Shown: positions 37,301-42,660 of the stretch, piece by piece | How positions within the stretch are numbered: position 1 is the first letter of the stretch | How the letters are laid out: each line of letters opens with the position of its first letter | Assembly: GCA_026874595.1 (NCBI GenBank) | Contig: CM049316.1 | Span: forward strand, 12,452,839-12,516,838 | DNA length: 64,000 nt | DNA from: Sipunculus nudus | Lineage: Eukaryota > Annelida > Sipuncula > Golfingiida > Sipunculidae | Reading direction: 5' to 3' | Position numbers and translations under genes: made by a program | Notes under the pieces: generated by a model | Told to the model about the DNA's origin: nothing | Database searches by the model: none | Seen by the model: the letters and a program-made list of their open reading frames with translations, nothing else

Positions 37301-39792
37301 AATGGTTTTAAATGAAGCCTGTACATCATTGCATTATTTACAGCCATTATATAAATGTAAACATCTTTCTGGTCATTTTCAAGGGAATATTTGGTTCTTA
37401 TTTTAAAGTAAATTTAAAAGTTTCAAAACATCCAGGTTTATTGTAAACATTTGGTCACATGAAACACTTTCACTTACAATGAATGACCAGCTGATTGGGT
37501 ACATGTGTACTAACAGTGTCACATGACACAACATGAAAATGAGGCTAGTGAGGAATCCAGTGACTGTGGTGAACACAAAAACACGCAGGTGCCAGCTGAG
37601 TGGTAGAGCGAGGTAACCACCTTCCTGAGAGGCTGAGGTGGTCAGGCACACCAATGCCGATGCCGAGAATACCTGCAATATATTAAGGTAAATGAAAACA
37701 GACAGGTGCCAGCTGAGTGGTAGAGCGAGGTAACCACCTTCCTGAGAGGCTGAGGTGGTCTGGCACACCAATGCCGACGCCGAGAATACCTGCAATATAT
37801 TAAGGTAAATGAAAACAGACAGGTGCCAGCTGAGTGGTAGAGCGAGGTAACCACCTTCCTGAGAGGCTGAGGTGGTCAGGCACACCAATGCCGACGCCGA
37901 GAATACCTGCAATATATTAAGGTAAATGAAAACAGACAGGTGCCAGCTGAGTGGTAGAGCGAGGTAACCACCTTCCTGAGAAGCTGAGGTGGTCAGGCAC
38001 ACCAATGCTGACGCTGAGAATACCTGCAATATATTAAGGTAAATGAAAACAGACAGGTGCCAGCTGAGTGGTAGAGCGAGGTAACCACCTTCCTGAGAGG
38101 CTGAGGTGGTCAGGCACACCAATGCCGACGCCGTGAATACCTGCAATATATTAAGGTAAATGAAAACAGACAGGTGCCAGCTGAGTGGTAGAGCGAGGTA
38201 ACCACCTTCCTGAGAGGCTGAGGTGGTCAGGCACACCAATGCTGACGCCGAGAATACCTGCAATATATTAAGGTAAATGAAAACAGACAGGTGCCAGCTG
38301 AGTGGTAGAGCGAGGTAACCACCTTCATGAGAGGCTGAGGTGGTCAGGCACACCAATGCAGACGCCGAGAATACCTGCAATATATTAAGGTAAATGAAAA
38401 CAGACAGGTGCCAGCTGACTGGTAGAGCGAGGTAACCACCTTCCTGAGAGGCTGAGGTGGTCAGGCACACCAATGCTGATGCTGAGAATACCTGCAATAT
38501 ATTAAGGTAAATGAAAACAGACAGGTGCCAGCTGAGTGGTAGAGCAAGGTTACCGACTTCCTGAGGGGTTGAGGTGGTCAGACACACCAATGCCGACGCC
38601 GAGAATACCTGCAATATATTAAGGTAAATGAAAACAGACAAGTGCCAGCTGAGTGGCAGAGCAAGGTTACCGACTTCCTGAGGGGTTGAGGTGGTCAGAC
38701 ATACCTGTGCTGACACTTAGAAAACCTGTAATATATAGAGGTAAACGAAAAAATAGAGGTGCCAGCTGAGTAGTAGAGCAAGGTTACCTCCTTCCTGAGG
38801 GCCAGTGTCAAAGCTGAGAATGTCTGCAATATATAGAGGTTAATAATAACTGAAATCCCTGTCAAGCATAAGATCATCCTTTATTGGGCTAATACAATAA
38901 AAATGTGCTTAAATTAAGATCAATTAAAACAAAATTTTTTAAATTTACAAGGTATATAGACAGAAAGCTGGGTGAGAGGGATAGACAGACAAACATGCAA
39001 TTTTTTTTTATAAGTTCTACAACTTTACAGCAGAGACTGTAAAGTATCTAAGGATAGTACTGTCAGGAAAGAAAATGGCTCACACAAAAACACATATGAA
39101 AGGGCAGAGAACATAACTGGATTCTGGAATAAGAAATATTTATATCACCCTTGTATTAATGTTTGAAGCTTCCTTTAGCAGGGTCAACATTACATTTGCA
39201 TATTCCTGTGTATAATATGAAGTCCTGAAACATGCAACTCTTAAGTGATAGCATTTGAGATAAATTTGCTTTTTGAAAAGGATGGGCTGCTTATCTAAGT
39301 CAAAGTTGCTGAATTGTTAAGAGTTAAATCTCCCATATATTACCGGATAATATATTAACAAATCTTGAAATACTAGAGTGAAACTAAAAAAAAAGTACCA
39401 CATTACTGTTTTCCAATAACCCTACAGATAATCCCATAAAATAAAATAGATATCCAGTATAATACCAATGTATCATCCAGCTCAATTTCAACCAACAGAT
39501 TCTGACTCACCACTTGTAACAGCTGTACAATACCCCTAAATGATAAGAAATACTTCATGTAGCACCAGAGGACAATGACACGCTGATGACTGCGAGGGGA
39601 GTATGGCTTCATACATGGGTGCTGTTCCTCTGCTGTTTGTAAACCACACTGGTCTTTTGGCGGGATGCTGCAGTCATCAGTTGTGCTGATCATCGGCATC
39701 ACCTCGGTAGGTTCCGCATCAGGGATCTCGTCCGCCATCTCGTCACATCCCTGTCCTTGAGCGTGCCTGTCTGTCTGGGACAGGAGGTCCAT
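34331..39792 (-). CDS. MARVEL-domain tetraspan membrane protein (CMTM/plasmolipin-like), 248 aa in four exons
   Basis: Exons in gene order: 39792-39511 (94 codons), 37672-37478 (65), 36423-36289 (45), 34465-34331 (44 plus TGA). Every junction is GT-AG and phase 0. Residues 1-75 are polar and acidic. TM1 is about 80-105 (S-F-R-G-I-V-Q-L-L...), TM2 124-151, TM3 160-182 (starting NVVAYSFLSFMFLFG) and TM4 205-222 (YINLLLYSILAFYNY). A basic cytosolic tail follows. Four helices with this spacing and the N-V-V-A-Y and F-Y-N-Y signatures fit the MARVEL fold of vesicle and junction proteins; the exact subfamily is unsure. The chosen ATG lies 4 nt inside its exon, so a 5' UTR exon is expected upstream. 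A possible donor near 41193 would instead add an in-frame Cys-rich N-terminus. Exon 2 also has amplified upstream copies (37560-38850). Confidence 0.8.
35040..36075. repeat. Tandem array of about 255-bp units with GGTGGCACCACC palindromes
   Basis: The block GGTATCCAAGATCTATGGAC recurs at about 35064, 35290, 35545 and 35800, with a shorter unit at 35942. Units also share AGGTGGCACCACCTGTCTGA, TTTCAGACCAATAC and CTCCTGAGA. It lies in the last intron of the MARVEL gene. Read on the minus strand, the order of blocks (ATATCTC, AAATTT-GCATGT, AGATC, palindrome) recalls the array at 20010-21350. Confidence 0.9.
37560..38850 (-). repeat. 117-bp tandem array carrying the acceptor and 5' part of MARVEL exon 2
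   Basis: About eleven units at 117-bp spacing (AGGTGCCAGCTGAG at 37587, 37704, 37821 and so on). On the minus strand each holds a short pyrimidine-rich tract, TATTGCAG and the first 26-30 codons of exon 2. Only the leftmost unit continues into the full exon and its donor. Because 117 is 39 codons, units 1-9 keep the exon-2 frame open; acceptors at 37672, 37789, 37906, 38023, 38140, 38257, 38374, 38491 and 38608 are all in the same phase. The tenth unit has an in-frame TAA (38717-38719) and the eleventh is about 16 bp short. A 437-codon open frame across the array is mostly a consequence of this periodicity. Confidence 0.95.
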
Positions 39793-42108: not shown

Positions 42109-42660
42109 TTAGTAATAATTTCGAAGATATACTGGGGAAAGATCATGTTTCATTTTATAGGTTTCAGTTACGATAGTCTTAGGTCTTTGTAGTTCTAGGT
42201 TATCAAAATTGTGTTTATTCAAGAGCTGAGTGTAGTCAGTATTTAAGTCTCCATCAATCAGGCATAGTGCCCGCTTTAAGATGCACTCCATCTTGACTGC
42301 AAGTATCTGTCCACAGAAATGCGAAAGGATGGAGTAATAGTTAAAGTTTGATTGTATAAAAGACCGGACGATAGTAAGTTTAGCATCTCTATCTAGAATG
42401 CGATGTATTCTGTACAAAGCACAAAGTTGCCTTGCAGCCTTTATACAATGTTTATTTACATGAAATTTAAATTTCATATGTTTATCTATGTAAATACCAA
42501 GTAGTTTTACACAAGCTTCACTGTTTAAGGTGGTATTGTTAATGTTGATACTTAAATTTCACTGGATACCTTAGGTTGAGAAGGAAGCTTACCTGAAATT
42601 TATCAGGAATAGCTTCCATTAAATTGATATGGAACCATTCTATAGCTATCTGACATTCAG
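42109..42660 (-). pseudogene. Non-LTR retrotransposon (LINE) reverse transcriptase, C-terminal remnant
   Basis: On the minus strand the peptide shows the typical end of a LINE polymerase: A-I-E-W-F, M-E-A-I-P-D-K-F-Q, L-L-G-I-Y-I-D, F-H-V-N-K-x-C-x-K-A-A-R-Q-L, S-F-I-Q-S-N-F-N-Y and L-S-P-V-Y-L. The 3' open part is 122 codons (42477-42109). Sequence to its right continues the match with frame breaks near 42560-42600. The catalytic core (YADD region) is missing, so this is a 5'-truncated, dead copy. Confidence 0.8.

Follow-up and report, generated by a model that had tools for sequence, protein, structure and literature searches.

The 64,000-nucleotide stretch of Sipunculus nudus contig CM049316.1 considered here (assembly GCA_026874595.1, positions 12,452,839 to 12,516,838; the window) carries a MARVEL gene on its minus strand, in which a tandem array of 117-bp units lies across the boundary between intron 1 and exon 2. 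The gene is composed of four exons and encodes a predicted complete protein. When the exons are joined at the acceptor nearest to the body of exon 2 (no added unit, n = 0), the predicted product has 248 residues and four hydrophobic segments. Its assignment to the MARVEL family, proposed in an initial annotation of this DNA, was corroborated by profile PF01284, which gave 41.4 bits against a curated cut-off of 32.8, aligning residues 82-219 with positions 2-134 of the 135 profile positions. No second match to the 248-residue protein was found in the genome at E <= 1. Splice sites were scored with a site matrix derived from 60 acceptors and 59 donors sampled in the same genome; the junctions of these sites were inferred, the matrix was refined on the same sites, and the lowest scores fall below 0. 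The features of the gene and of the array are given below in the direction of transcription, with a slash marking the splice point.

39511..39792, minus strand: exon 1, with the ATG start, 94 codons and a phase-0 end, stopping inside the first transmembrane segment (TM1)
39510 (first intron base), minus strand: exon 1 donor GTG/GTGAGT, 8.38 bits
38824..39510, minus strand: intron 1 proper, 5' of the array
38726..38823, minus strand: outermost decayed unit, with the acceptor TTGCAG/ACATTC and a frame that is off by 2 and then meets a stop
38609..38725, minus strand: second decayed unit, with the acceptor TTACAG/GTTTTC and TAA as the third codon in frame
37673..38608, minus strand: eight near-identical units, each consisting of 87 nt of exon 2 start and 30 nt of intron end carrying the next acceptor
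38608, 38491, 38374, 38257, 38140, 38023, 37906, 37789 and 37672 (first exon bases), minus strand: nine acceptors reading TTGCAG/GTATTC, spaced 117 bp
37478..37672, minus strand: exon 2 proper, 195 nt, of which the first 87 nt are the ninth copy
37477 (first intron base), minus strand: exon 2 donor ATT/GTAAGT, 6.13 bits
36289..36423, minus strand: exon 3, 135 nt, phase 0, with acceptor 8.19 bits and donor 5.14 bits
34331..34465, minus strand: exon 4, 135 nt including the stop, encoding the fourth transmembrane segment and the C-terminus, with acceptor 12.13 bits

The nine near-identical units described in the initial annotation were all recovered, sharing one 3' splice site, one start of exon 2 and one phase, and two decayed copies upstream of them can now be added. 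Tandem Repeats Finder (TRF) delimited the 117-bp array at 37578-38799, with 10.4 copies and 95% matches, and a search of the 1.43-Gb genome located it at one place. The tandem units cross the predicted exon-intron boundary and carry splice signals according to the site matrix; depending on the acceptor chosen, intron 1 would measure about 0.9-1.8 kb. The inner units are homogenised, and decay is restricted to the intron edge. As the copy on the exon side corresponds to the consensus at 86/87 sites, the real coding start of the exon has been homogenised together with the intronic copies.

With regard to the reading frame, the proposal that splicing into any of the nine acceptors would preserve it proved correct: exon 1 joined to each of them yields an uninterrupted reading frame whose length is 248 + 39n residues (n = 0-8). 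The hydrophobic segment V-F-I-Y-L-N-I-L-Q-V-F-S-A that had been ascribed to each unit was recovered as VFIYLNILQVF in every added unit, but TA replaces SA at one junction. The common phase is a single coincidence rather than nine, since all it takes is a unit length that stays the same and is a multiple of 3 (about 1 in 3), together with an open 30-nt piece. This intron-derived piece is open in the required frame in 0.58 of shuffles, and the in-frame property is near chance, at about one in five for both conditions together. The PF01284 score, determined for n = 0 and n = 1, decreased to 33.3 bits with one added unit, and the score of the TM1-TM2 piece alone decreased from 23.8 to 15.9 bits.

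Across the nine units, 15 columns are variable, none of which falls in the 30-nt intron-derived part (0/15, P = 0.008), and the longest invariant stretch measures 50 nt (P = 0.003). Without the edge unit at 38608, these values become 0/8 (P = 0.09) and P = 0.14, respectively, and selection on the acceptor region of the units was rejected because its invariance is not significant once this unit is dropped. Selection on the units as coding sequence was also rejected (P = 0.09): the single changes comprise 8 synonymous and 8 non-synonymous ones, with 31% synonymous expected and a double change in one codon entered as two. Four of the 8 synonymous changes are CpG transitions. The homogenisation of the exon start is the expected outcome of tandem-array turnover, and neither as protein nor as splice sites do the units give firm evidence of selection.

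By its anatomy, the array is probably a tolerated 'mirage' minisatellite, that is, a tandem duplication of an exon-intron boundary, known here from genomic sequence alone. Mirage minisatellites have been described in lancelets, in the globin genes BflGb6 and BflGb9 and in Adh3, troponin C and PGBD5 (PMC3902484); data on Adh3 (PMC3087553) and reverse-transcription polymerase chain reaction on the globins (PMC3902484) suggested that splicing is regular despite the arrays. The class is also marked by a copy number that differs between haplotypes or cells; the MARVEL array was examined in one assembly, where it matched one place. It differs from the lancelet cases in that its nine units are all open, in frame and exactly 117 bp long. 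With the exception of human boundary repeats, no mirage-type array outside lancelets was found among the matches listed in the literature search, within the portions of those sources that were available. A search of the assembly for GFP-family proteins gave no match, which counts weakly against a lancelet host, since the control was silent as well.

Arrays at other splice junctions of the same genome provide natural controls. The exon sample comprised 60 loci, 30 from 75 myosin matches and 30 from 126 kinesin matches, best scores first; it includes several exons per gene, and some matches run over stops and hence past the exon end. Four loci were flagged by self-comparison and then inspected, and junction-spanning near-tandem copies were found in 3/60 sampled exons (L021, L032 and L045). 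L053 was dropped as a junction array, its repeats ending before the likely acceptor. The synaptogyrin array L004 was encountered incidentally during the MARVEL search and stands outside the count of 3/60. These loci are as follows.

L004 (G000:C2), 2074-2373 and 1785-2043: synaptogyrin gene with an acceptor array of 51-55 bp and donor-like repeats of about 29 bp in one intron
L032 (G000:C7), 523-1522: myosin-profile P-loop exon followed by 28 donor copies ACAG/GTCAGT, with a 36-bp unit and a spacing of 35-36 bp
L021, 1624-1725: donor present twice, from the myosin/kinesin sample, spacing 56
L045, 1695-1796: degenerate donor repeat, from the myosin/kinesin sample, spacing 38
L053 (G000:C13), 1085-1522: repeats of about 17 bp containing numerous CTACAG motifs that resemble acceptors, immediately 5' of a kinesin exon

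When the two final exons of L004 are connected at the last of its acceptors, the alignment of the product to Synaptogyrin-1 runs through the junction (query 2-62 to chain 133-194, E = 1.6e-9). The locus has six acceptors, spaced 55, 55, 51, 51 and 55; of the five that lie upstream, four change the reading frame and one is in phase but runs into a TGA. Three of these upstream acceptors score 11.93 bits, one 9.76 and the outermost 7.24, with 9.73 for the real one. At L032, use of any one of the 27 additional donors would introduce a TAG stop codon in frame. Since the arrays of L004 and L032 break the frame or add stops, exon-proximal choice or removal of the extra copies must work there. Considering the spacings listed above, together with 27-30 for the L004 donors, in-phase units are not the rule in this genome. 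In L021 and L045, one a myosin and the other a kinesin exon, the donor is duplicated to two or three copies.

Near-tandem repeats cover 16,052/168,000 points of the flanks (9.6%) and occur in 33/60 loci. An enrichment of arrays at junctions was rejected on comparing this share with 3/~120 junctions (two per exon assumed), and arrays seem to be rather rarer at junctions than in flanks. The sampled loci are thus best described as rich in minisatellites, some of which catch a junction. With junction-spanning copies in 3/60 of the exons sampled, splice junctions seem to undergo tandem turnover commonly in the genome. A synaptophysin-like gene (L006:811-1207, G000:C1) carries intron repeats of 33-126 bp that start near the donor.

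We consider it likely that the MARVEL array has a mirage-type origin and that the exon-proximal acceptor at 37672 is the one mainly used, giving the 248-aa protein and leaving the other eight acceptors as decoys. In a MARVEL gene with four transmembrane segments, a tandem duplication would have included the 3' end of intron 1 together with the 87 nt that open exon 2. The array would then have expanded and been homogenised by unequal exchange or conversion, while two old copies decayed on its intron side. In the mature messenger RNA, exon 1 would be joined mainly to 37672 and the eight other acceptors passed over, either because recognition of the copy nearest to the exon 2 donor is coupled to that of the donor itself (exon definition) or because units that have been retained are excised later. 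The acceptor at 37672 is favoured because n = 0 fits the MARVEL profile better than n = 1, and because of the L004 and L032 controls and the splicing data from lancelets. The initial annotation had offered two readings, a source of repeat-number protein variants or a decoy array that must be suppressed. The latter is the better supported, since the L004 and L032 arrays break the frame or add stops in genes with conserved products, and since one added unit weakens the MARVEL match and the units show no significant coding constraint; the former is less so.

Several observations weigh against a predominant use of 37672. All nine unit acceptors score 9.78 bits, which is the median of the 60 sampled acceptors, and the local sites therefore cannot determine the choice among them. 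Isoforms with n x 39 additional residues may occur at a low level, given that the nine acceptors score alike; the decayed upstream acceptors score 9.31 and 7.67 bits. In competition assays, an identical upstream site nearer to the 5' splice site often wins. The specificity of the site matrix is limited, as an unrelated AG in intron 1 (39123) scores 9.20 bits, and the positions of the junctions in the sampled exons and in L032 are inferred ones.

If the upstream acceptors were appreciably used, a ladder of isoforms would result, in which each unit contributes one transmembrane-like segment and a loop; the old TM2-TM4 would keep their orientation with an even n and be inverted with an odd one, and peptides spanning WHLSVFIYLNILQVF would be produced. 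This seems unlikely to us. The nine acceptors are indeed equal, in phase and stop-free up to n = 8, one hydropathy peak of 1.86-2.04 accompanies each added unit, and the intron-derived part is invariant across all nine units; yet the MARVEL score is lower at n = 1, significant coding constraint is lacking, the invariance loses its significance without the edge unit, and both phase and openness are near chance. That the array is an assembly artefact, its unit number having been expanded or collapsed so that the true copy number differs, is very improbable. The analysis covered one assembly, but private substitutions distinguish several of the units, decay marks the copies at the edge, and the contig that contains the locus is 79 Mb long. 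Such an artefact could alter the number of units, hardly the existence of the array.

Another explanation starts from the juxtaposition of an acceptor and a putative donor in CAG/GTATTC at each junction, which gives every unit the form of a GT-AG intron of 117 nt. The units could thus form a self-excising, ratchet-like ladder, from CAG/GTATTC to TTGCAG/ in each unit, by which units are removed stepwise or upstream mis-splices are corrected. Scored as a donor, CAG/GTATTC reaches 7.61 bits (29th percentile of the 59 sampled), which is above the donors of exon 2 and exon 3 but below that of exon 1. Another GT within the unit scores 5.94 bits, which makes the donor score weak evidence. The donor regenerated after the joining of exon 1, GTG/GTATTC, scores only 3.21 bits (12th percentile), and AG/GT is missing from some other junction arrays, namely L045 and the donor array of L004. 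We hold such a ladder to be improbable as the main explanation. As a hypothesis, a mis-spliced transcript entering the array upstream could lose the retained units in a second step, the weak regenerated donor notwithstanding. In a broader and rather doubtful scheme, the array would be an in-frame ladder of acceptor-donor sites that can be entered at any rung, where introns of 117n nt would be excised and errors self-corrected, leaking a limited number of isoforms with 0, 1 or a few extra transmembrane segments. Splice-junction minisatellites would then continually supply the genome, in an error-tolerant way, with new introns and coding repeats.

The MARVEL array shares features with three further systems. 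In intron gain by tandem genomic duplication of AGGT, the duplicated AG/GT yields a GT-AG segment between the copies (PMC3443670). Similarly, AG/GT borders each MARVEL copy, with nine CAG/GTATTC at 117-bp spacing, whereas here a pre-existing intron boundary is duplicated and the units are introns in form and may act as such. In recent human paralogues, internal tandem repeats occur at exon-intron boundaries and the minisatellite can be retained or spliced out (PMC2812944). Those repeats belong to paralogues from segmental duplication with transcript evidence, whereas the MARVEL gene has no second match in the genome and is known from its sequence. Recursive-splicing ratchet points juxtapose an acceptor and a donor (PMC8605326), as the sequence of the MARVEL junctions formally does. 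Unlike those points, which lie within long introns, the MARVEL junctions form a 117-bp ladder in an intron of about 0.9-1.8 kb and have a mediocre donor.

Other observations were made in the window and in the genome. On the minus strand at 42109-42558, an open stretch of 149 aa may be the C-terminal part of a retrotransposon reverse-transcriptase open reading frame. At G000:C2:44849337-44854198, consecutive matches cover nearly one and the same part of the myosin-head profile (about 90-153) and may represent alternative exons in a gene for muscle myosin. A muscle myosin exon matched chains in the PDB, presumably of squid, mammal and scallop, with nearly equal scores. Neither a molluscan haemocyanin domain nor a FARP match was found in the genome, with silent controls in both searches. 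DNA from associated bacteria is probably present in the assembly. Eleven cytochrome-oxidase matches were found in it, on C60-C89, on C123 and, weakly, on C5, and the reading frames in G000:C123:1-20000 (L069, L070; 20 kb of 112 kb) look bacterial. ARAGORN found no transfer RNA in these 20 kb of the 112 kb of C123.

An intron with nine 3' splice sites of identical sequence amounts to a natural competition assay, in which proximity to the 5' splice site is set against pairing with the donor further downstream. A second such assay is provided by the synaptogyrin array L004, whose real acceptor is outscored by three that are skipped. In a host that is not a lancelet, the mirage class would be wider than the published cases describe, as far as the available portions of those papers go. 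Finally, a common tandem turnover of splice junctions, as suggested for this genome, bears on the lengthening and the origin of introns.
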